NCBI GenBank assembly: GCA_022843925.1
Contig: JALHMS010000004.1
Location: 111,086 to 175,085, forward strand
Length of the DNA stretch: 64,000 nt
Reading direction: 5' to 3'
Source of the DNA: Burkholderiales bacterium
GTDB lineage: Bacteria; Pseudomonadota; Gammaproteobacteria; Burkholderiales; Ga0077523
Positions within the stretch are counted from its first letter, which is position 1; each line of letters starts with the position of its first letter. This document shows, in pieces, positions 10,299 to 63,807 of the stretch. The notes under the pieces are model-generated. The model was not told the origin of the DNA and made no database searches. It was given only the letters and a program-made list of their open reading frames with translations. The position numbers were made by a program, and so were the translations under genes.

Positions 10299-12880
10299 CG
10301 CTCGCCCCGCAGCCTCAGCCCGTGCTGACGGCGCCGATACGCCCGGTAGGCATCCGCCGCGGCCGTTCCGACGCCCGGTGGCAGAAGTCCGAGCGACTCG
10401 GTGATCCGCAGCAGCGCGATGTTCCCGACGTTGCCGGTCAGGACGTCGTGGTCGGCCGAGTGCGCGAGCACCAGGAACTGCACGGCGAACTCCACGTCCA
10501 CGATGCCGCCCGGATCATGCTTCACATCGAAGAGACCGCTGGTGTTCGGGTGTCCGTCGCGCATCTTCTGTCGCATCGCCCGGACCTCCGCACGCAGGGT
10601 CTCCTTCTGTCTCGGCATCCGCAGGATCTCCGTCCGGAGTGCCTCGAATCGTGCCCCGAGCCCCGTGTCGCCGGCGACGAATCGCGCGCGCGTCAGCGCC
10701 TGGTGCTCCCAGGGCCAGGCCGCGGTGCGCTGGTAGGTCTCGAAGGCCTCGATGCGGCTCACGAGCAGGCCGCTCGCCCCGTCCGGCCGCAGGCGGAGGT
10801 CGGTCTCGTAGAGGAGCCCGGCCCCGGTGTGGCTGGTGAGCGCGCCGTTCATCCGCTGGGCGAGGCGTGCGTAGTTCTCGGAGGCCTCCGGTGCCTCGTC
10901 GTCGTAGAGGAAGATGATGTCGAGGTCGCTGTCGTAGCCCAGCTCCTTGCCGCCCAGCTTGCCGTAAGCCACGACCGCGAACCGTGCGGTCTCCCGATGC
11001 CGGCTCGGCATGCGTCCCCAGGTGATCCGGAGCACCTGCCGGAGCAGCATCGTCGCGAGGTCCGAGAGGTGATCGGACAGGCGTTCGAGCGTGAGGCTGC
11101 CGGCGAGGTCGAGCGCGAGCAGGCGGAACGTCTGCGTGTGGCGGCAGTGCCGGAGCAGGTCGAGCTGCACCTCGTGGTTGCCGTCGGCGGCGGTGAGGTC
11201 CAGGACGAGCCTCTCCTCGACGGCGGTCCAGTCGGGCTCCTGCAACTGCTGCACGTCGATCAGCTCATCGAGCAGCATCGGATGTCGCGCGAGGTAGTCG
11301 CAGGCCCACGGCGACTGCGACACCAGTCGCGCCACCGAGGTGAGTGCCTGCGGGTACTCCACCAGCAGGGCGATGTACGACTCGCGGCGCCCGATGCTCT
11401 CCACGATCCGCAGCAGGCGATCGAGCGTCTCGTCCGGGGAAGGATGCCGGGCCGCGGCCCGCACCATGCGCGGCAGGAGCTGGTCGACGCGCGCCTGCGC
11501 CTGCCCGCCCATGCGCTGGAACCGCACGCCGCCACGCAGTGACCGGATGCGATCGAGGGATGCGCTGCCGTCCCGGTAACCGAGTCCCGCCAAGACGGCC
11601 TCGGCTTCGCCGTTGCCGTCGCCCCGGATCGCGATGTCCAGGGGATCCCCCTCGCCCTGATCCGCCCCGGCGAAGATGGCGCCGAAATGCCGCGAGACGC
11701 GCGCGCGGTACTCGTCCAGGCGGGCAAGGAGGGCCGCGTAGTCCGCGCAACCCATCGACTCCGCGATGCGGGCGCGGTCCCCGTCGTCCTGGGGGAGTGC
11801 CTGGGTCTGCTGGTCGTCGAGGTATTGGAGCCGGTGCTCGAGATCCCGCAGGAAGCGGTAGGCATCGAGCAATTCCTCCACGGCATCGACCGGGAGCAGG
11901 CCGCGCTCCGCGAGGGCGCGCAGCGCGGTCCTGGTGGGCCGGACCCGCAGGCCGGCGTCGCGTCCCCCGCGGATGAGCTGGAACACCTGTGCCGTGAACT
12001 CGATCTCGCGGATGCCGCCGGGTCCCAGCTTGATGTTGTCGGCGATGTCGCGTCGCCGGACCTCCGCCGCGACCTGGCCGTGCAGTTCGCGCATCGACTG
12101 GATCGCACTGAAATCCAGATGCCGCCGGTAGACGAAGGGGCGGACCAGCGCGTCGAGTTCCGCGATGCGGTCGCCCGTGAGTGCCCGCGCCTTCACCCAC
12201 GCGTAGCGCTCCCAGGCGCGACCCTGCGCCGTGAAGTACTCCTCGAGCATGTCGAGGCTCACGGCGAGCGGCCCGCTCTCGCCGTACGGGCGCAGGCGCA
12301 TGTCCACCCGGAACACGAAACCGTCCTCGGTGACCTCGCTCAGGGCGCCGATCAGCTTCCGACCGAGGCGGGTGAAGTATTCGTGCGCCGAGATGACGCG
12401 GCCACCCCGGGTCTCGCCGTCCTCCGGATAGACGTAGATGAGGTCCACGTCGGACGACACGTTGAGTTCGCCGCCCCCCAGCTTGCCCATGCCGATCACC
12501 ATCAGGCGCTGGCGGTGGCCGAGGCGGTCGACCGGGACGCCGTAGGTGTCGGCCTGCCAGTCGTCGAGACGTTCGAGGGCGAAGGCGATGGTCGTCTGCG
12601 CCAGCGTCGTCATCGCGCCGACGACATCGTCGAGGTGCCCCGGGCCGGCGAGGTCCCGGGCGATCGTGTGGAGCATCACGCGGCTGCGCAGCCGCCGGAG
12701 GGCGCGCTTCATGCCGCCTTCGTCGGTGGGGGCGGCGGCTTCCAGCTCGGACCGCATCCGTGCTGCGTCGAACGTCTGCGCCAGGAGTTCCGGCTCGAGG
12801 AGATCCGGACTTCGGTCGAGCAGGCGGCGGACGTAACGCGAGAGGCGGGCTGCGCCTTCGAAGGCTGCGGTGGGGATCAT
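10217..12880 (-). CDS. glnE: Glutamine synthetase adenylyltransferase/deadenylase
   Basis: 887 residues. It adenylylates and deadenylylates glutamine synthetase in response to PII and glutamine. Two nucleotidyltransferase domains are visible: the N-terminal one with GMGKLGGGELN and SSDVDLIYVY (deadenylylation), the C-terminal one with YGKLGGKELG and DSDLDIIFLY (adenylylation), each followed by a helical PII-uridylyltransferase-like linker. ATG at 12880 is chosen as the first methionine at the family N-terminus. It is convergent with the cyclase gene and divergent from the YhdP-like gene. Confidence 0.96.
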   Translation of the reverse strand: MIPTAAFEGAARLSRYVRRLLDRSPDLLEPELLAQTFDAARMRSELEAAAPTDEGGMKRALRRLRSRVMLHTIARDLAGPGHLDDVVGAMTTLAQTTIAFALERLDDWQADTYGVPVDRLGHRQRLMVIGMGKLGGGELNVSSDVDLIYVYPEDGETRGGRVISAHEYFTRLGRKLIGALSEVTEDGFVFRVDMRLRPYGESGPLAVSLDMLEEYFTAQGRAWERYAWVKARALTGDRIAELDALVRPFVYRRHLDFSAIQSMRELHGQVAAEVRRRDIADNIKLGPGGIREIEFTAQVFQLIRGGRDAGLRVRPTRTALRALAERGLLPVDAVEELLDAYRFLRDLEHRLQYLDDQQTQALPQDDGDRARIAESMGCADYAALLARLDEYRARVSRHFGAIFAGADQGEGDPLDIAIRGDGNGEAEAVLAGLGYRDGSASLDRIRSLRGGVRFQRMGGQAQARVDQLLPRMVRAAARHPSPDETLDRLLRIVESIGRRESYIALLVEYPQALTSVARLVSQSPWACDYLARHPMLLDELIDVQQLQEPDWTAVEERLVLDLTAADGNHEVQLDLLRHCRHTQTFRLLALDLAGSLTLERLSDHLSDLATMLLRQVLRITWGRMPSRHRETARFAVVAYGKLGGKELGYDSDLDIIFLYDDEAPEASENYARLAQRMNGALTSHTGAGLLYETDLRLRPDGASGLLVSRIEAFETYQRTAAWPWEHQALTRARFVAGDTGLGARFEALRTEILRMPRQKETLRAEVRAMRQKMRDGHPNTSGLFDVKHDPGGIVDVEFAVQFLVLAHSADHDVLTGNVGNIALLRITESLGLLPPGVGTAAADAYRAYRRRQHGLRLRGERYARVAPEELAEERSVVLALWTTVLGD

Positions 12881-20056: not shown

Positions 20057-20788
20057 TCAGATCTTCAGACACTTCCCCGATGCGAGCACCGGACCCGACG
20101 GGCGGCCGGTCGGCGAGCCACCTTCCGGTTCCAGGCTCATGGCCATCCCCGCCGCCTTGTTGAGCTGATGACGCAGTTCCTCCGGCACCTCCACCCACTG
20201 GGTCTCGTGCGTGTTGATGAAGCCGAGCGAGCGTGGTGGCTGGTTGCCCTCCGGGAGGGCCCACAGTTCCCAGGCCGTGCCGGGCGCCATCTCTGCGTGT
20301 CCGATCACCCGGATCCGAAGCTTGGGCTTGCCCCGACCCTCCGGGGACCAGGCGACGCTGATCGAGGGATTCCGCGTCTCGGGGTCTTCCATCACGACCA
20401 CCATCGCTTCCTCGGGTCCAGCGACGTCCGATGGCCCGGTGCTCACCACAACGAACGCGAGGAGCACGCTTGCGAGACCTGCGGAGGCGAAGGACGTCCA
20501 GCGCCAGAAGGCGAGGCTGCCGAGCCATGTGGTCTTCTCCGCCGCTGCCGCTTCGCGTGATGGATTGATCCGTGCCTCGATGCTTTTCCAGACGGCAGGG
20601 CCCGGTTGCACCGCCGGGAGCGTGTCGCAAAGCGGGTTCAGCCGGGCCTCCCAACGGCCCACCTCGCGGCGGAGCGCGGGATCACTCTTCATCCAATGCT
20701 CGAAGCGGCGTCGCGCCTGGCCATGCAGGGTGCCGAGCACGTACTCGGCGGCCAGGATCGATCGGGTTTCGGGGTTCTGCGGTTTCAT
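20057..20788 (-). CDS. Anti-sigma factor, RskA/anti-sigma-K type
   Basis: 243 residues. The N-terminal cytoplasmic part (AAEYVLGTLHGQARRRFEHWMKSDPALRREVGRWE, given here only as the family type) is a sigma-binding zinc-less ASD. One membrane helix, about residues 95-113 (ASVLLAFVVVS), leads to a periplasmic RskA C-terminal domain with GTAWELWALPEG. It begins 14 bp after the sigma gene, so the two form an operon in which the anti-sigma factor holds its sigma at the membrane. The inducing signal cannot be read. Confidence 0.88.
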   Translation of the reverse strand: MKPQNPETRSILAAEYVLGTLHGQARRRFEHWMKSDPALRREVGRWEARLNPLCDTLPAVQPGPAVWKSIEARINPSREAAAAEKTTWLGSLAFWRWTSFASAGLASVLLAFVVVSTGPSDVAGPEEAMVVVMEDPETRNPSISVAWSPEGRGKPKLRIRVIGHAEMAPGTAWELWALPEGNQPPRSLGFINTHETQWVEVPEELRHQLNKAAGMAMSLEPEGGSPTGRPSGPVLASGKCLKI

Positions 20789-20802
20789 CGCGATGTTCAG
20801 GT

Positions 20803-21354
20803 TCAGGCCGACGTGGCGTCCATGCACCCGCGCAGACGTTCCAGGCCGCGGCGCACCCAGGTCTTGATGGTGCCGAGCGGTTGGCCGAGGTGCTCCGCCA
20901 TCTCGCTGTGCGACAGACCGTGCAGGTACGCGAGCGCGATCGACTGGCGCTGCTGCCCCGAGAGCGTCCCGAGGCATTCCGCGAGTGCGCTGCTGTCGGC
21001 GGCGTTGCGAAGCCGGTCGAGCGGACCCGGCGCATCGTCGGCCCAGTTCTCGACGATGCCGTCGAGTTCCTCGTCGGAGGTCTCGTGCTTCGGCCGCCGC
21101 ACCCAGTCGAGCGCCCGGTTCCGCACGATGGTGGTCATCCAGGTCATCGGGGCGCTCCTGACGCGATCGAAGTGGGACACGTGATTCCAGATGTTGACGA
21201 AGCTCTCCTGCAGGATCTCCTCGGCCCAGTCGCGCCGGCGGACCACCCGCAGCGCGACCGCGAGCAACCGTCCCGAGGTCTGTCGATAAAGTTCGGCGAA
21301 AGCGCGCTGGTCGCGCATCGCGCACCGGGCCATCAGATCGTCAAGGGCGTCCAT
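20803..21354 (-). CDS. ECF-type RNA polymerase sigma factor
   Basis: 183 residues with only regions 2 and 4. Region 2 is around AEEILQESFVNIWNHV and MTWMTTIVRNRALDWVRR; region 4 has LAYLHGLSHSEMAEHLGQPLGTIKTWVRRGLERLR, a helix-turn-helix. ATG at 21354 is chosen for the GGGAG five bases upstream; a GTG four codons earlier is possible. It is paired with the downstream anti-sigma gene. No autoregulated -35/-10 was identified in the short gap to the cobalamin adenosyltransferase gene. Confidence 0.93.
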   Translation of the reverse strand: MDALDDLMARCAMRDQRAFAELYRQTSGRLLAVALRVVRRRDWAEEILQESFVNIWNHVSHFDRVRSAPMTWMTTIVRNRALDWVRRPKHETSDEELDGIVENWADDAPGPLDRLRNAADSSALAECLGTLSGQQRQSIALAYLHGLSHSEMAEHLGQPLGTIKTWVRRGLERLRGCMDATSA

Positions 21355-22012: not shown

Positions 22013-22936
22013 TCAGCGCGCCAGATCTTCAAGCTCGAGCTGGAGATAGCGGCCGAGCACGTTCTTGCGATGCACGGTCTCGTAGCCCGACCACCCGGCG
22101 TAATCGGGCAGTGTCCCCTGCTCGACGGCCTCCATGAGGCTCGCACCGCCGTCGAAGAGTTCGCGGACGCGGCGGTCCAGTGCGAGGAGGTAGTCCCGGG
22201 TGAGCCTTGCCCCGGTCGACGGCAGTGGCGCTCCGTAGCCCGGGACCAACAAGGATGCGCCGAAGGCGTCGAAGGCTTCCAGTGCCGCGACCCAGTCGGC
22301 GAAGCGGCCGTCGCGCAGTTCGGGGATCCGCCCGTTCACGACGACGCCCCCCGTGAACATCACGCCCGTGGCGCGATCGAGCACCATGAGGTCCCCGGGG
22401 GTGCTTGCCCAGCCCGGATGGATGAGCGACAACTGCCGGCCGGCGACCTGGATTTCCGCGCTTGCGGGCACCGTATCGGTCGGCACGATGAGCCGCGTCC
22501 CGGCCATCTCGTCGTCGCCCAGGATGAGTCGCAGGTTCTCGAGACAGTGTTCACAGCGCTCCCGCATGAGGGCAGCGCTTTTCTCGTGGCACAGCAGAGG
22601 CACGGACTCGGCGGCGAACACCGTCGTGCCGTACAGGAATTCCTGGACTGCATGGGTCACGATCACCAGGGCCACCGGCAGATTGCTCACCTCCCGGATG
22701 GCGGCGCGCAGATCGAGTCCGTGCCGGTGGGAAACGCCCGTGTCGACGACGATGATCCCGGTGTCGCCCACGATGAATCCCGAGTTGCCGATCCGGCCGC
22801 GATTCCCGGGCGCGATGTCCCCGGGCAGACCGATGAAGGCGTAGACGCGATCGGCGACACGCACGGGACGGAGGTCGTCGGCGTGGGCCAGCGGGGCGGC
22901 CAGACAGAGCCACAGGATCAGGAGACGTTGCAGCAT
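22013..22936 (-). CDS. Exported metallo-beta-lactamase-fold protein lacking all zinc ligands
   Basis: 307 residues with a signal peptide (LLILWLCLAAPLAHA). It resembles the quinoprotein-relay (SoxH-like) metallohydrolase family in length and order of elements, but each metal site is changed. The HxHxDH position reads THAVQEFLYG; the later His position reads WASTPGDL; the bridging Asp position reads MFTGGVV; the last His position reads VPGYGAP. It also carries a Cys-rich patch, CHEKSAALMRERCEHC, absent from its neighbour. It is therefore probably a non-hydrolytic or altered-metal protein. It is divergently transcribed from an intact paralogue of the same length. Confidence 0.85.
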   Translation of the reverse strand: MLQRLLILWLCLAAPLAHADDLRPVRVADRVYAFIGLPGDIAPGNRGRIGNSGFIVGDTGIIVVDTGVSHRHGLDLRAAIREVSNLPVALVIVTHAVQEFLYGTTVFAAESVPLLCHEKSAALMRERCEHCLENLRLILGDDEMAGTRLIVPTDTVPASAEIQVAGRQLSLIHPGWASTPGDLMVLDRATGVMFTGGVVVNGRIPELRDGRFADWVAALEAFDAFGASLLVPGYGAPLPSTGARLTRDYLLALDRRVRELFDGGASLMEAVEQGTLPDYAGWSGYETVHRKNVLGRYLQLELEDLAR

Positions 22937-23070
22937 CGCCGGGACGATACCGGGTGCCGGTGCGGGCCGGCAAGGAAGGTCGACATCCGGATCGAGCCGC
23001 CGGCCGTATGATGCCCAGGCACGTGGCAGGCAAATGGCGGGCACACGGCAGGCACGCGGAGGACGGATCG

Positions 23071-23994
23071 GTGAGAAGAACGGGATGGGCAGTGGGGTGC
23101 ATCGCCGGATGGTTCCTGGCAACGGCAGTGCTGGCCGTGGAGATCAAGCTGGAGGAGGTCGCGCCGGGGCACTTCGTGCATCGCGGCTCGATGGAGGACC
23201 GCAACGCCGAGAACCTCGGGGACCAGGCCAACATCGGCTTCGTCGTGGGCGAGCGCTGCGTGGCGGTGGTCGATCCCGGCGGCTCGTTCGCCGTCGGGAA
23301 GGCGTTGAAGGCTGCGATGCGCAGGGTCACCGACAAGCCTGTCTGCCATGTGGTCATCACGCATTTCCACCCCGACCATTTCTTCGGCGCTGCGGCGTTC
23401 CGCGAGCCCGGCGTCCAGTTCGTGGCCCACGCGGGCTACGCGCGCACGATGGCCGTGCGCTCGCGTCCCTACGTGAATGCGCTGCGCCGCGATCTCGGAG
23501 CGGCTGCCGACGGCAGCGAGGTCATCGCACCGACGATGGTGGTCGACAAGGTGGCCACCCTAGATCTCGGTGGCCGCACCCTCGAACTGCGCGCCTGGAA
23601 TGTCGCCCACACCGACAACGATCTCACGGTCTTCGACGCGTCCACCGGAACCCTGTGGCTGGGCGATCTGCTCTTCGTGGATCACACGCCCGTCGTCGAC
23701 GGGTCGATACGCGGATTCCTGGAGGTGCTGGACGAGCTGGCCCGCCTGCCGGCGCGGGTGTACGTCCCCGGCCATGGCCGCACCGACGCGCCCTGGCCCG
23801 ACGGGCTGATCCCGGAACGCGACTATCTGAGACTGGTCCTTGCCGAGACCCGCGCAGCCCTGAAGCGCAAGCGGACGATCGAGCAGGCCGTCGACGAGGT
23901 GGGAACGACCGAGGCGTCCCGCTGGGTCAACTTCGACGCGTTTCATCGCCGCAACGTCACGACGACCTATACCGAACTCGAGTGGGAAGAGTGA
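23071..23994 (+). CDS. Quinoprotein-relay zinc metallohydrolase (SoxH-like)
   Basis: 307 residues. GTG at 23071 is chosen for the upstream GGAGGA and the clean signal peptide ending ATAVLA. All metallo-beta-lactamase ligands are present: HFHPDH, His in NVAHTDND, Asp in WLGDLLF and His in VPGHGRT. The family is found near PQQ-dependent dehydrogenases with a SoxYZ-like carrier, as is the case here. It should act in the periplasm; the substrate is unknown, possibly a thiol-bound adduct on the carrier encoded next door. Confidence 0.9.
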   Translation: MRRTGWAVGCIAGWFLATAVLAVEIKLEEVAPGHFVHRGSMEDRNAENLGDQANIGFVVGERCVAVVDPGGSFAVGKALKAAMRRVTDKPVCHVVITHFHPDHFFGAAAFREPGVQFVAHAGYARTMAVRSRPYVNALRRDLGAAADGSEVIAPTMVVDKVATLDLGGRTLELRAWNVAHTDNDLTVFDASTGTLWLGDLLFVDHTPVVDGSIRGFLEVLDELARLPARVYVPGHGRTDAPWPDGLIPERDYLRLVLAETRAALKRKRTIEQAVDEVGTTEASRWVNFDAFHRRNVTTTYTELEWEE

Positions 23995-24071: not shown

Positions 24072-24923
24072 ATGATGACGAAGTGGACATCACGGTTCGC
24101 CGTGGCAATGATCGCCCTGCTGGCTGTGACCGGCATGGCTGTGAAGAGCGCTGGCGCCAACGAGAAGGCCGAGCCGGATCCGCACAAGAGCCAGTACTGG
24201 ACTCCGATCCGCCAGATGATGTTCGGCGATCGCGAGATCCTCGATGGCAAGGACATCCTGAAGGTCTATCTGAACACGCGTGCGGACGACGCCGCGACGG
24301 TACCCGTGTCGGTGAAGGCCCAGATCGACCAGACGCCCGAGCGCTACATCAAGACCGTCTATCTGATCGTCGAGCGCAATCCCTCGCCTGCGGCAGGCGT
24401 CTTCCAGTTCAGTCCGGAGAGCGGTCGCGCCCAGGTCGAGACGCGCCTGAGATTCGAGGAATACTCGTTCGTCCGTGCCGTGGCCGAGATGAGTGACGGC
24501 AAGTTGTACATGGGAACGAAGTGGGTGAAGGCGGCAGGCGGTTGTTCGGCACCAGGCGGCGCCAACCGGATCCCTGCGCATCTCGTGGGCCAGATGAAGT
24601 TCCGGTTCGCGGACGACACGCTCGAGTACAAGAAGCCCGCGCTCGTGCAGTTGATGATCCGCCATCCCAACGAGTCGGCGCTCTCCTCGGACTTCGATGC
24701 GGACAAGGTGCCCCAGTTCGTGCGGAGCGTTTCCGTGACGTACGCAGGCAAGCCCGTGCTCTCCGCCGAGGTGGATTTCTCGCTGTCGGACAACCCGAGC
24801 TTCCGGTTCTTCTTCGTGCCAGAAGGCGAGGGCGAGCTCCGGGCGGTGGTCGAGGACACCCACGACAAGCAATACACCCATCGGATGACGATCACGGAGG
24901 GCGTGCCTCTTCCAGGCAGCTGA
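24072..24923 (+). CDS. SoxY-SoxZ-like carrier fusion, quinoprotein-associated
   Basis: 283 residues with an AGGAG site and a signal peptide (cut near SAGA-NEKA). The first half resembles SoxY and the second (about 185-283) resembles SoxZ, giving the fused carrier known to accompany quinoprotein dehydrogenases. In SoxY the acceptor cysteine sits at the C-terminal GGCGG tail; here a lone cysteine lies in the linker, AAGGCSAPGG near residue 160, and would be the swinging arm. It lies 77 bp after the metallohydrolase and before two cytochrome c genes. Confidence 0.9.
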   Translation: MMTKWTSRFAVAMIALLAVTGMAVKSAGANEKAEPDPHKSQYWTPIRQMMFGDREILDGKDILKVYLNTRADDAATVPVSVKAQIDQTPERYIKTVYLIVERNPSPAAGVFQFSPESGRAQVETRLRFEEYSFVRAVAEMSDGKLYMGTKWVKAAGGCSAPGGANRIPAHLVGQMKFRFADDTLEYKKPALVQLMIRHPNESALSSDFDADKVPQFVRSVSVTYAGKPVLSAEVDFSLSDNPSFRFFFVPEGEGELRAVVEDTHDKQYTHRMTITEGVPLPGS

Positions 24924-24966: not shown

Positions 24967-24982
24967 CCCGCACAATTGCGGG
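24967..24982 (+). other. Short hairpin between carrier and cytochrome genes
   Basis: CCCGCA and TGCGGG flank a CAAT loop and are followed by TTTCTC. The stem is only six pairs, so it may be a weak attenuator or RNA-processing site that sets the ratio of carrier to cytochromes, or it may be chance. Confidence 0.3.
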
Positions 24983-25014
24983 GTTTCTCAACCCGCACCA
25001 AGAACTCCATTCCA

Positions 25015-25347
25015 ATGAAAAACATGCGCTTTGCAGCCATCGCGGCCCTGGCGGTCCTGGGCGCCGCGGGCACGCAGGTCTGGGCAGCGGACGGCAGTGC
25101 CGAGGCCGGCAAGAAGAAGACCCAGATGTGCGCGGGTTGTCACGGTCTCGAAGGTTTCCGCACTGCCTACCCCGTGGTCTACAGCGTGCCCAAGTTGGGT
25201 GGCCAGAACGCGAACTACATCGTGGCCGCGCTCAAGGCCTACAAGTCCGGGGACCGCAACCACCCCTCGATGCGCGGGATCGCCGGCAGCCTGTCCGATC
25301 AGGACATGGCCGACCTCGCCGCCTACTACTCCGCCGTCGGCCAGTAG
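25015..25347 (+). CDS. Small periplasmic cytochrome c (class I)
   Basis: 110 residues: signal peptide ending GTQVWA, one haem site CAGCH, and an axial Met in HPSMRGIAG. It ends with the usual QDMADLAAYYSAV helix of the cytochrome c4/c553 type. It should carry electrons from a periplasmic oxidation, fitting the quinoprotein-relay neighbours. The ATG at 25015 lacks a strong RBS; an upstream frame extension has no signal peptide logic. Confidence 0.93.
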   Translation: MKNMRFAAIAALAVLGAAGTQVWAADGSAEAGKKKTQMCAGCHGLEGFRTAYPVVYSVPKLGGQNANYIVAALKAYKSGDRNHPSMRGIAGSLSDQDMADLAAYYSAVGQ

Positions 25348-25374
25348 GCCGGGGCAGCGGACGCAAGGATGCAC

Positions 25375-25704
25375 ATGAAGACGACGATCGCATTGGCAAT
25401 GGCGGTGCTGGTACTTTCCGCGGGAAGTGCCTGGGCGCGCGGCGATGCCGCCGCAGGCGCGAAGAAGGCTGCGGAAGTGTGCGCCGCCTGCCACGGTGAA
25501 GGTGGTGCGAAGCCCGCAACGCCCGATTATCCGATCCTGGCTGGTCAGCCGCAGGATTACCTCGAGCACACGCTGAAGTCCTACAAGTCCGGCAAGCGCA
25601 AGAACGCCATCATGTCCGGCATGGCGGCGGCGCTGTCGAAAGAGGAGATCGCCGACCTCGCGGCCTACTTCTCGAAGCAGAAGGGCCTCGCCTACAAGTA
25701 CTGA
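25375..25704 (+). CDS. Small periplasmic cytochrome c (class I), second copy
   Basis: 109 residues, similar in plan to the preceding cytochrome: signal peptide ending GSAWA, haem motif CAACH, a likely axial Met in NAIMSGMA, and the EEIADLAAYFSKQ helix. ATG at 25375 has AAGGA at five bases; an ATG two codons earlier is possible. Only 27 bp separate the two genes, and a terminator follows. The pair may give a two-step electron chain or a di-haem complex like split cytochrome c4. Confidence 0.93.
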   Translation: MKTTIALAMAVLVLSAGSAWARGDAAAGAKKAAEVCAACHGEGGAKPATPDYPILAGQPQDYLEHTLKSYKSGKRKNAIMSGMAAALSKEEIADLAAYFSKQKGLAYKY

Positions 25705-60724: not shown

Positions 60725-61888
60725 TCAGGCGGTCGTCACGGGCGGTTGCTCACCCGCCGCGAGCGCGCGGGAGTTGCGATCGTCCCGGAACACGATCGGT
60801 TTCGTGTTGGCGGGCAGCTGCGGTCGCTGGGCCTTCTCCACCTGTTCGGTGATCAGATGGTGGTGGGGCGACAGATCGCAGACAGGGTCCGCGTTCGTGG
60901 CGTCGCCCGTGAGCATGAAGGCCTGGCAGCGGCAACCGCCGAAATCCTTCTCCTTCTCGGGGCAGCTGCGGCAGGGCTCCTGCATCCAGGTGTCGCCGCG
61001 GTACGTTCCGAAGGCGGGGGATTCGTTCCAGATCCACTTCAGATCATGGTCGCGCACATTCGGGAACTCGATGCCCGGCAGCATCCGGGCTTCGTGACAC
61101 GGCAGCGCCACGCCGTCGGCGGCGACGTTGAGGAAGATGGACCCCCATCCGTTCATGCAGGCCTTCGGCCGCGTCTCGTAGTAGTCCGGATGCACGAAGT
61201 AGATCTTCATCTTGTCGCCCACGCGCTCCCGGAACGCGTTGGTCACCGCCTCTGCGCGCTGCAACTGGTCCCGAGTGGGCATGAGCTGGTCGCGGTTCTT
61301 CATCGCCCAGGCGTAGAACTGCGTGTTGGCGAGTTCCACGTACTCTGCGCCGAGCGTCTCGGCCATCTCCAGGATCTCTTTCGTGTGATCCAGGTTGTGG
61401 CGATGCATCACGCAGTTGAACACCATCGGGTAGTCGTACTTCTGGATGAGTTCCGCCGCACGCTTCTTCAGTTCGAAGGTCTTGGTGCTGGAGAGCCAGT
61501 CGTTCATCTCCCGCGTGGAGTCCTGGAACGAGAGCTGGATGTGGTTCAGCCCGCCCTCCTTGAACGCGGCGATGCGCTTCTCGGTGAGCCCGATGCCCGA
61601 TGTGATCAGGTTCGTGTAGTACCCGAGGCGCCCGGCCTCCGCGACGATGATCTCGAGGTCGTCGCGCATGAGCGGTTCGCCGCCCGACAGGCCGAGCTGC
61701 ACCAGGCCCAGTTCGCGTCCCTGCTGCAGCACCCGGATCCAATCGTCGGTCGAGAGTTCCGGGCCGAACTTCGCGTAGTCGATCGGGTTGTAGCAGAACA
61801 CGCAGTGCAGCGGGCACTTGTACGTGAGTTCGGCATTGAGCCAGTGCGGCTTAGGCACCGGCGCTCGTACGGATCCAGCCGTTTCCAT
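60725..61888 (-). CDS. pqqE: PqqA peptide cyclase (radical SAM)
   Basis: 387 residues. Forms the carbon-carbon bond between the Glu and Tyr of PqqA using PqqD as chaperone. Radical SAM cluster Cys25-x3-Cys29-x2-Cys32 (CPLHCVFCY) and SPASM cysteines near the C-terminus (LPCHEARM, CRSCPEKEKDFGGCRC, PVCDLS). GGAGG lies before the ATG. The gene overlaps the end of pqqD by 38 bp. Confidence 0.97.
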   Translation of the reverse strand: METAGSVRAPVPKPHWLNAELTYKCPLHCVFCYNPIDYAKFGPELSTDDWIRVLQQGRELGLVQLGLSGGEPLMRDDLEIIVAEAGRLGYYTNLITSGIGLTEKRIAAFKEGGLNHIQLSFQDSTREMNDWLSSTKTFELKKRAAELIQKYDYPMVFNCVMHRHNLDHTKEILEMAETLGAEYVELANTQFYAWAMKNRDQLMPTRDQLQRAEAVTNAFRERVGDKMKIYFVHPDYYETRPKACMNGWGSIFLNVAADGVALPCHEARMLPGIEFPNVRDHDLKWIWNESPAFGTYRGDTWMQEPCRSCPEKEKDFGGCRCQAFMLTGDATNADPVCDLSPHHHLITEQVEKAQRPQLPANTKPIVFRDDRNSRALAAGEQPPVTTA

Positions 61889-62153
61889 GAGCCACCTCCA
61901 AGAAATCCACCACGTCGGCGCGCAGGCTGCCCGCCTCGGGGTAGGCCTGTTCGAGTTCGGCGACGATCGCGTTCAGACTGCGCGCGCCGTCGATGCGCTT
62001 GAAGATCTCGCCCCCACTGCCGGGCAGTTGCACCATGCCCTCGGGGAACAGGAGTACGTGGCACTCCTGCGCCGGCTCCCACTGGAACCGGTAGTACTTC
62101 GCAATCGCGATGGGGGTGTCGTGATCGAACGGAACGCGCTTCGGGGTTGCCAT
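61851..62153 (-). CDS. pqqD: PQQ peptide chaperone PqqD
   Basis: 100 residues. Binds the PqqA peptide and presents it to PqqE. Winged-helix-like RRE domain with FPEGMVQLPGSGGEIFKRIDG. ATG at 62153 is 2 bp after pqqC; the long overlap with pqqE (38 bp) ensures coupled synthesis of the two partners. Confidence 0.94.
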   Translation of the reverse strand: MATPKRVPFDHDTPIAIAKYYRFQWEPAQECHVLLFPEGMVQLPGSGGEIFKRIDGARSLNAIVAELEQAYPEAGSLRADVVDFLEVAHGNGWIRTSAGA

Positions 62154-62155
62154 CG

Positions 62156-62875
62156 TCAGCCGACCTTCGTTTCGCCGATGCCGTAGTTCACCATCATCGC
62201 ATCGCACATGGTCCACAGGACGTCGAGCTTGAACTGCAGGATGTCCAGCGCGCGCTGCTGCTGCTCCGGCGTGCGGAAATGTTCGAGGGTCACGCGCAGG
62301 CCGTGATCCACATCGCGGCGGGCCTCCGACAGGCGCTTGCGGAAGTAGGCGTAACCCGCCTGGTCGATCCACGGATAGTGCTGGGGCCAGTTCGCCAGGC
62401 GTTCCTTGTGGATCTCCGGCGCGAAGAGCTCGGTGAGCGAAGAGCAGACCGCCTCCTGCCAGGGTCGAGTGCGCGCGAAGTTGATGTACGCGTCGACCGC
62501 GAACCGCACGCCCGGCAGCACGTGCTTCAGCGACGTCACCTCGGCGCGATCCAGCCCGACGGCGTCGGCCAGCGTGAGCCACGCCTCGATGCCGCCTTCG
62601 TCGCCCTGGGTTCCGTCGTGATCGATGATGCGCTGGATCCAGAGACGCCGATGATCCCGGTCGGGCATGTTCGACATCACTGCGGCGTCCTTCACGGGGA
62701 TCGCCAACTGGTAGTAGAAGCGATTGCAGACCCAGCCGCGGATCTGCGCCTGCGTCAGCTTTCCGCTGTTCATCGCGACGTGGTACGGATGATAGATGTG
62801 GTATCGGTCGCCCTTCGCACGAAGCTTTTGCTCGAACTCTTCGCGATTCCACGGCAGATTCTCGGCGATGCCCAT
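62156..62875 (-). CDS. pqqC: Pyrroloquinoline-quinone synthase PqqC
   Basis: 239 residues. Cofactor-free oxidase that makes the final eight-electron oxidation and ring closure of PQQ. Family segments: [57 protein letters not shown] precedes the ATG. Between pqqB and pqqD. Confidence 0.97.
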
Positions 62876-62892
62876 GTGGTGTGCCTCCGTGC

Positions 62893-63807
62893 CTACAGTT
62901 CGATGTCCATCCCGTCAAACGCGACCTCGATGCCGACGCGGGCCAGTTCGGCACGTTCCGGGGAGTCCTCGTTCAGGATCGGGTTGGTGTTGTTGATGTG
63001 GATGAGCACCTTGCGCGATGCGCGCAGCGGCTTCAGCACCTCGATCATTCCGCCGGGTCCCGACTGCGGCAGGTGGCCGATGTCCCGGGCGCGCTTGCTG
63101 GAGATGCCCAACGTCACCATCTCGTCGTTCGTCCAGAATGTGCCGTCCACCATCACGCAGTCGGCCTCCTCGAGGTACGCGACCACGTGCGGCTCGATCT
63201 CACCCAGACCCGGCGAATAGAACAGCACCTTGCCCGTCCGCGTGTCGCGGATCCGCATGCCGATGTTGTCGCCGATATGCGGATTCTCCCGGTGCGGGGA
63301 GTAGGGCGGCGCCTTGCTTTTCAGGGGGACGGACGTGAACTCCAGATGCTCACCACCGACCACCGAGAACCGGTTGTCGGGCTCGATGGGCAGCCTGTGC
63401 CAGTTCACGCCGCAGTAGTGGCCCAGGATGTTGAAGAGCGGGTTCCCGGTGGTCATGTCCTCCCGGACCATGTCCGTGCAGAACAACTCGAGCGGTTTGC
63501 CTTCGCGTAGCATCAGGAGGCCGGTCGTGTGGTCGATCTGGCCATCCATGAGGACCACCGACCGGATGCCCGTATCGCGGAGCGCCCGCGCCGGCTGAAG
63601 CGCCGGGAATCCGCGGATCTGCGCGAGGATGTCCGGCGATGCGTTGAAGAGCACCCAGTCGACGCCATTGCCGCTCACCGCAATCGAGGACTGGGTACGC
63701 GCCCGCGCATTCACCGTTCCCTTCCGCAACCCATCGCAGTTCGGGCAGTTGCAATTCCATTGCGGGAAACCTCCGCCGGCGGCGGCTCCGAGTACGCGAA
63801 TCTTCAT
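62893..63807 (-). CDS. pqqB: PqqB, MBL-fold hydroxylase of PQQ biosynthesis
   Basis: 304 residues. Metallo-beta-lactamase fold; hydroxylates the tyrosine of the peptide intermediate. The zinc-binding CNCPNC (residues 19-24) and the segments GGGFPQWNC and [11 protein letters not shown] mark the family. First gene of pqqBCDE. A pqqA gene was not found in the 193 bp left of the window. Confidence 0.96.

Follow-up and report, generated by a model that had tools for sequence, protein, structure and literature searches.

What becomes of a protein with the MBL fold once nearly all of its metal ligands have been replaced? The question is raised by a gene pair within the 64,000-nt stretch of a Burkholderiales genome analyzed here (hereafter the window). 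The left gene, WL (22013..22936, minus strand), encodes an MBL-fold protein, and the right gene, WR (23071..23994, plus strand, GTG start), encodes quinoprotein relay system zinc metallohydrolase 2 (TIGR04559). As the initial annotation described, the two genes are divergent and their products equal in length (307 aa each), and the reported export of both agrees with N-termini that look signal-peptide-like by eye. Judged from this putative signal, WL would reside in the periplasm. The description of the two as twins is not borne out, since WL and WR share 31% identity and belong to separate families; a recent duplication was rejected because of this identity and the placement of the two proteins in different deep groups of the tree. 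WR is followed on the plus strand by a fused, quinoprotein dehydrogenase-associated SoxYZ-like carrier with a GGCSAP cysteine arm (24072..24923; TIGR04557, 216 bits vs. a cut-off of 140) and by two small c-type cytochromes (24976..25347 and 25369..25704). The PQQ biosynthesis genes pqqB, pqqC, pqqD, and pqqE occur 38 kb away (60725..63678, minus strand). An ECF sigma factor and a probable anti-sigma factor, the latter recognized by eye, are located at 20057-21354 and may constitute a regulator.

When WL and WR were aligned on the MBL ligand set, all seven ligands were found in WR, as had been proposed, vs. only H95 in WL. V97, F100, S178, G197, and Y234 of WL take the place of His, His, His, Asp, and His, respectively, and E99 occupies an Asp site; the corresponding motifs of WL and WR read HAVQEF/HFHPDH, WAST/VAHT, FTGG/LGD, and VPGYG/VPGHG. 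The four substituted sites had been read correctly in the initial annotation, but its claim that every zinc ligand is replaced overlooked H95. With one of the seven ligands that define MBL metal enzymes (HxHxDH, His196, Asp221, and His263), WL falls outside that group, and the alignments show no set of ligands at displaced sites. The eroded HxHxDH motif, residues 95-100, is encoded at 22637..22654 (minus strand, counted from the WL start codon). A Cys-rich patch had also been pointed out in WL; its C128 and C131 are conserved, but the other cysteines are not, and 5 of the 41 high-scoring rows described below have Cys at position 116. The conserved pair reads C128-E-H-C131 (22544..22555, minus strand, counted likewise) and lies in a predicted helix spanning residues 118-139. 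Attachment of heme c by WL was rejected because the protein contains no CxxCH, as checked by eye, and an iron-sulfur cluster between WL subunits appears unlikely given a signal that looks Sec-type by eye.

WL passes the MBL superfamily profile PF00753 (38 bits vs. a gathering cut-off of 22.7), and it scores below the curated cut-offs of TIGR04559 (SoxH_rel_PQQ_2; 186.9 bits vs. 280), TIGR04558 (SoxH_rel_PQQ_1; 185.4 bits vs. 300), and the subclass B1 beta-lactamase model NF033088 (45.2 bits vs. 200). Alignment with relay families 1 and 2, which had been proposed as a check, assigned WR to family 2 (372.5 bits against TIGR04559, cut-off 280) but WL to neither, and membership of WL in either family was rejected on these scores. 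By sequence criteria, WL is a member of a third relay family, unnamed in the libraries used and characterized by Cys at positions 128 and 131. In one annotated record, the CxxC protein is labelled only "MBL fold metallo-hydrolase." TIGR04559 proteins resemble WL in fold, approximate length, and SoxYZ-like neighborhood, but their rows without CxxC mostly retain the ligands and carry Gly/Ala/Ser and Tyr at the CxxC positions. Similarly, TIGR04558 proteins share fold and gene context with WL, but the family-1 rows read contain no CxxC. Whether family 1 itself keeps its ligands had been raised earlier, and the two TIGR04558 proteins scored give different answers: L026 (379 bits) has the full set (HHHPDH, GHT, GD, PGHG), but L034 (376 bits) shows partial losses (LNLHPDY, GG). 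WL itself is not a family-1 protein (185 bits vs. 300). A separate partial ligand loss, with LN.HPDY and GG at metal positions, is shared by the family-1-like genes L034/L147, L148, and L149, of which only L034 was scored; the genomes concerned also encode three of the CxxC members that diverge most. In G014, G239, and G316, the divergent CxxC member has a family-1-like gene 1 to 11 kb away, the G014 gene being the one scored. Another MBL group, comprising L141 (6657-7679, in WL's own genome at G000:C34), L059, L137, and L138, keeps His196, Asp221, and His263 and has NSQPHRFLG, NSQSHYWLG, or TG[DG]QDHRWLG in place of HxHxDH. Two proteins of this kind, L141 and the G039 protein of L025/L059, were tested and fell below both relay-family cut-offs.

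How widespread is the WL family, and how constant are its cysteines? Among 60 relatives searched, homologs of WL with 39-90% identity occurred in 11 of 12 members of the host genus, its own genome G000 included, and in other families of the order; the one without a CxxC match was G004, whose genome is 79% complete. A profile built from 19 sequences retrieved 41 matches of at least 279 bits in 40 of 399 genomes of the order, the next match scoring 237 bits, and in a 398-genome sample of the phylum matches at that level came from the host order only (G000 and G268). Divergent members were missed by these two profile searches because at most five candidates per genome, at E ≤1e-60, were scored; four members came from other searches. 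In the 102 distinct MBL rows read, Cys is present at both WL positions in the 41 high-scoring rows and in the weaker L057, and absent in the other 60. With five later members, found in G316, G239, and G014 and on plasmids of Azoarcus sp. KH32C and Caballeronia sp. M1242, CxxC at C128/C131 is seen in 47 of 47 family members vs. 0 of 60 other MBL rows, a count that is partly circular for the weakest members, whose membership was partly motivated by the motif, whereas only the score was used to group the 41 high-scoring rows. From an alignment stripped of the ligand and CxxC columns, we calculated a tree of 100 of the 102 rows (all except L004_853p, which is distant, and L041_2m, which is a fragment), in which a branch supported at 84/82 separates the 42 CxxC rows from the rest. 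A quick tree of 110 rows that includes the five later members has several very long branches and requires two changes vs. one, a cost at which a single origin of the enlarged family may still hold.

Loss of the di-metal site extends to the whole family: CxxC members keep between zero and four of the seven ligands (n = 47), vs. all seven in 53 of the 60 MBL rows without CxxC. The three His of the Zn1 site are retained in 11 of 47 members (HxHPEN-type and kin) and the Asp221 position is Asp in just 3, which suggests from the alignment that the second metal site was lost first and the first site later, with CxxC present throughout. One reading of such erosion is the ordinary decay of a redundant duplicate, with which the loss of most ligands and the lack of a CxxC match in the incomplete G004 would agree. 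We consider this extremely improbable. Comparison of WL with a 90% identical relative gave a dN of 0.053 and a dS of 0.333 (dN/dS ~0.16), indicating purifying selection and not a decaying gene; moreover, no internal stop occurs in any of the 41 order matches of at least 279 bits, synteny is kept in the genus, and CxxC is invariant. The pseudogene reading was rejected on the dN/dS ratio, the open frames, and the synteny. A different possibility is that WL is still a metalloenzyme, with a mononuclear site rebuilt from H95, E99, and new residues. H95 is conserved in 45 of 47 members and E or D at position 99 in 46 of 47, H117 and H289 are nearly invariant in the family, and the members with an intact Zn1 His triad would fit as well. 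However, equivalents of H118 and H196 are missing in WL and most members, and among 32 members the only invariant His/Asp/Glu/Cys columns are D65, C128, C131, and E301, where the D65 and E301 equivalents are invariant in the WR family as well. We regard a rebuilt metal site as unlikely.

Within the genus, and in several families besides, the CxxC gene stands in the order sigma factor, PduO-type gene (identified by eye), WL, WR, SoxYZ-like gene, and cytochromes c. Counted over the 42 stretches with a CxxC row, the PduO-type gene is present in 21 and the sigma factor in 16. A SoxYZ-like gene lies within 5 kb of the CxxC row in 27 of 42 cases, and a non-CxxC MBL gene within the same distance also in 27; 26 of these neighbors have all seven ligands and one, the fragment L041_2m whose gene is cut by a contig end, has six. 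Fifteen CxxC rows have no other MBL row in their stretch, some of these stretches being short or cut. A PQQ-ADH or pqq gene is found in the stretch of 15 of the 42 CxxC rows, including the window, and at least one of SoxYZ-like, PQQ-ADH, and pqq accompanies 35 of 42. For two further rows, in stretches L126 and L130, which like L059 have no gene calls, genome tables placed a PQQ-ADH 2.8 kb from the CxxC row (G293) and a SoxYZ-like gene 1.3 kb from it (G336). The remaining five rows either come from contigs shorter than 4 kb or have a contig start no more than 1 kb away. The gene run of Azoarcus sp. KH32C begins with a PQQ-dependent dehydrogenase, a cytochrome c, a quinoprotein-associated substrate-binding protein, and two hypothetical proteins, and continues with a TIGR04559 protein, a SoxYZ-like carrier, and the CxxC protein (AZKH_RS24075).

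Adjacent cysteines (vicinal CC) were present in all 10 dehydrogenases read, whether linked to a CxxC gene or from WL's own genome. The segment DEWD[FY]DG, which we take to be a XoxF-like lanthanide signature, was present in 8 of the 10 and was not seen in L121 and L131. The arm cysteine of the SoxYZ-like carrier (GGC[ST]) is kept in 29 of 29 carrier genes read. The genome that harbors WL has a XoxF-type cluster of its own (L139, G000:C16:46000-64000) with dehydrogenase, cytochrome, substrate-binding protein, and SoxYZ-like carrier; a search of this region with WL found no MBL gene, and the cluster may therefore be served by WL and WR, which lie on a different contig. One stretch of G268 (L135) unites a PQQ-ADH, two SoxYZ-like genes, the CxxC protein, a cytochrome, and pqqBCDE. 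Seven of the 42 stretches (L052, at 10388-10720, L053, L120, L128, L132, L133, and L135) encode a small protein with conserved cysteines (KCSC[AV]ID and others) next to XoxF-type and CxxC-MBL genes; neither the L053 protein nor a stretch of L139 gave a Pfam match, and in Azoarcus sp. KH32C a hypothetical protein occupies the same position.

The association also holds at the level of genomes. We compared 41 genomes with the CxxC protein and 39 comparators of the order that were chosen as CxxC-negative in the first searches. PQQ-ADH matches at E ≤1e-60 occurred in 41 of 41 vs. 4 of 39 (43 of the 80 genomes exceed the family cut-off), and a SoxYZ-like protein over its cut-off in 40 of 41 vs. 4 of 39, one of those four with an internal stop. 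G011, which is 64% complete, is the sole CxxC genome without a SoxYZ-like match over the cut-off, and the comparator G014 was later found to encode a divergent CxxC member. TIGR03865, the PQQ_CXXCW family, exceeded its cut-off in none of the 80 genomes; five gave weaker matches, the best from a CxxC genome being that of G177 (113.5 bits vs. 128). In the phylum sample, TIGR04557 was over cut-off in 61 of 398 genomes, 55 outside the order and 6 inside. Outside, TIGR03865 was over cut-off in all 38 genomes with an unbroken TIGR04557 match and in 0 of 17 with only stop-holding matches, which we read, from the interrupted frames, as probable separate SoxY and SoxZ. CxxC was absent in all 40 MBL rows from those 38 genomes (the best match of each and two second matches), a count that excludes 25 weaker rows of ≤126 bits. 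Inside the order, TIGR03865 was over cut-off in 0 of 6 genomes and the CxxC protein was present in 5 of 6, G036 being the exception. In G036 and G040, two genomes of the order with SoxYZ-like and PQQ-ADH matches (weak in G040), searches found neither the CxxC protein nor TIGR03865. The mutual exclusion of the CxxC and PQQ_CXXCW proteins is essentially one phylogenetic contrast, order vs. rest, as opposed to many independent events.

PQQ_CXXCW is the apparent counterpart of the CxxC protein outside the host order, in that it too is a Cys-x-x-Cys protein accompanying a SoxYZ-like carrier and a relay metallohydrolase. It has the rhodanese rather than the MBL fold, and no homology with WL is claimed: two TIGR03865 proteins tested contained a rhodanese domain, and one that was read carries CLADCW. 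A PQQ_CXXCW protein is reported to be upregulated with a PQQ dehydrogenase and PqqC/PqqD in Azospirillum brasilense (PMC12826043), and fused SoxYZ is linked to alcohol oxidation and not to sulfur oxidation (PMC11237559, PMC11582611). Section 15 of PMC12997753 describes rhodanese, SoxYZ-like, and SoxH-like genes that accompany dehydrogenases with adjacent cysteines, and suggests that the trio may assist in forming disulfides or shield PQQ from sulfur species. Among the papers and passages retrieved on SoxYZ-like proteins, none describes a CxxC MBL protein, and we found no paper in the literature that combines at least three of MBL fold, pseudoenzyme, zinc ligands, and CXXC.

Structure prediction bears on what the cysteines might do. 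AlphaFold2 models reached a mean pLDDT of 92.7 for WL (32 members) and 94.7 for WR (35 sequences). In the WL model, C128 and C131 are mid-helix, in the helix that follows the HxHxDH segment, whereas the CxxC of thioredoxin lies at a helix start. The solved fold nearest to the model is chlorothalonil dehalogenase (6UXU, TM ~0.79), in which two monomers are bridged by a structural zinc, each contributing His143 and Asp146 as ligands (PMC12784990). In all three MAFFT modes, the dehalogenase residues opposite C128/C131 are 144 and 147, which follow the zinc ligands by one position; on this basis, the modeled cysteine pair is probably near a dimer interface. In the dehalogenase, the interface zinc ligands are located on the helix following the metal motif, next to the CxxC positions, but chlorothalonil dehalogenase is an active zinc enzyme with its own ligand set and has Cys at neither position. 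An interface location supports a structural role of the pair as much as an exchange surface. In the structural case, the main alternative to the thiol function favored below, the CxxC pairs of two subunits (WL-WL or WL-partner) would jointly bind zinc where the subunits of a dimer meet, with WL acting as a dead scaffold or as a regulator of WR. Dead/active MBL pairs are known: the degenerate CPSF100 (beside CPSF73) and Int9 have the MBL fold without a metal site and accompany an active paralog, but they act in eukaryotic RNA processing and have no CxxC link. On the other hand, with the one-residue offset from the dehalogenase ligands the geometry may differ, the exclusion of PQQ_CXXCW is not predicted by a structural role, and the 15 CxxC rows without another MBL row in their stretch indicate that a fixed neighboring WL-WR pair is not universal. 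Periplasmic free thiols, moreover, tend toward oxidation unless they are metal-loaded. Overall, we judge an interface zinc site to be a serious but improbable explanation.

The earlier suggestion that WL is a pseudoenzyme partner, or that its cysteines bind another metal or a persulfide, is thus supported in part, namely by the family-wide erosion of the di-zinc site, the invariant CxxC, and the non-CxxC MBL neighbor of 27 of the 42 rows. We favor, with a probability of roughly one half (about 0.48), the reading in which WL, a pseudo-hydrolase with the MBL fold, has been recruited by a XoxF/SoxYZ-like relay to act in the periplasm as its thiol (disulfide or persulfide) partner. In favor of it are the invariant CxxC, the loss of ligands, the linkage and co-occurrence with quinoprotein genes, and the exclusion of PQQ_CXXCW among the genomes sampled. 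The chemical steps, direction of transfer, and physical partners that we infer for WL are as follows. In its ancestors, the di-metal site would have disappeared and a Cys-x-x-Cys arisen on the helix that follows the HxHxDH segment. WL would then partner with the SoxYZ-like carrier, the intact relay metallohydrolase, and a XoxF-type PQQ alcohol dehydrogenase, and would carry out the thiol step that in other lineages falls to the rhodanese-like PQQ_CXXCW protein. In this capacity, it might connect the single arm cysteine of the carrier with the dehydrogenase side (either the vicinal Cys-Cys or PQQ bearing sulfur adducts), a disulfide or sulfane sulfur being passed between them, after which the zinc enzyme WR would release the oxidized sulfur in a hydrolytic step. 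Several observations speak against a thiol function: H95 and the acidic residue at position 99 are conserved although the thiol idea needs neither, and the mid-helix CxxC, with its alignment beside interface zinc ligands, favors a structural role. The genomes G036 and G040, in which neither protein was found, the sub-cut-off TIGR03865 match of G177, the second change in the enlarged tree, and the reduction of the exclusion to essentially one contrast count against this reading as well.

As a wider proposal, which we put forward tentatively and with somewhat less assurance than the function of WL itself, an MBL-fold hydrolase of the host order may have been stripped of its metal site and rebuilt around CxxC, and may there stand in for PQQ_CXXCW, providing the SoxYZ-like carriers of XoxF-type dehydrogenases with their thiol/persulfide partner. 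The relay would have a third protein, and the exchange would be a functional swap between non-homologous proteins. Section 15 of PMC12997753 treats the role of the SoxYZ-like, SoxH-like, and rhodanese genes beside lanthanide- and PQQ-dependent alcohol dehydrogenases as unsettled. A further component, present in the absence of the rhodanese and invariant in its cysteine pair, would narrow that question to thiol chemistry and, if the reading is true, WL would represent an MBL-fold hydrolase converted into a thiol protein.
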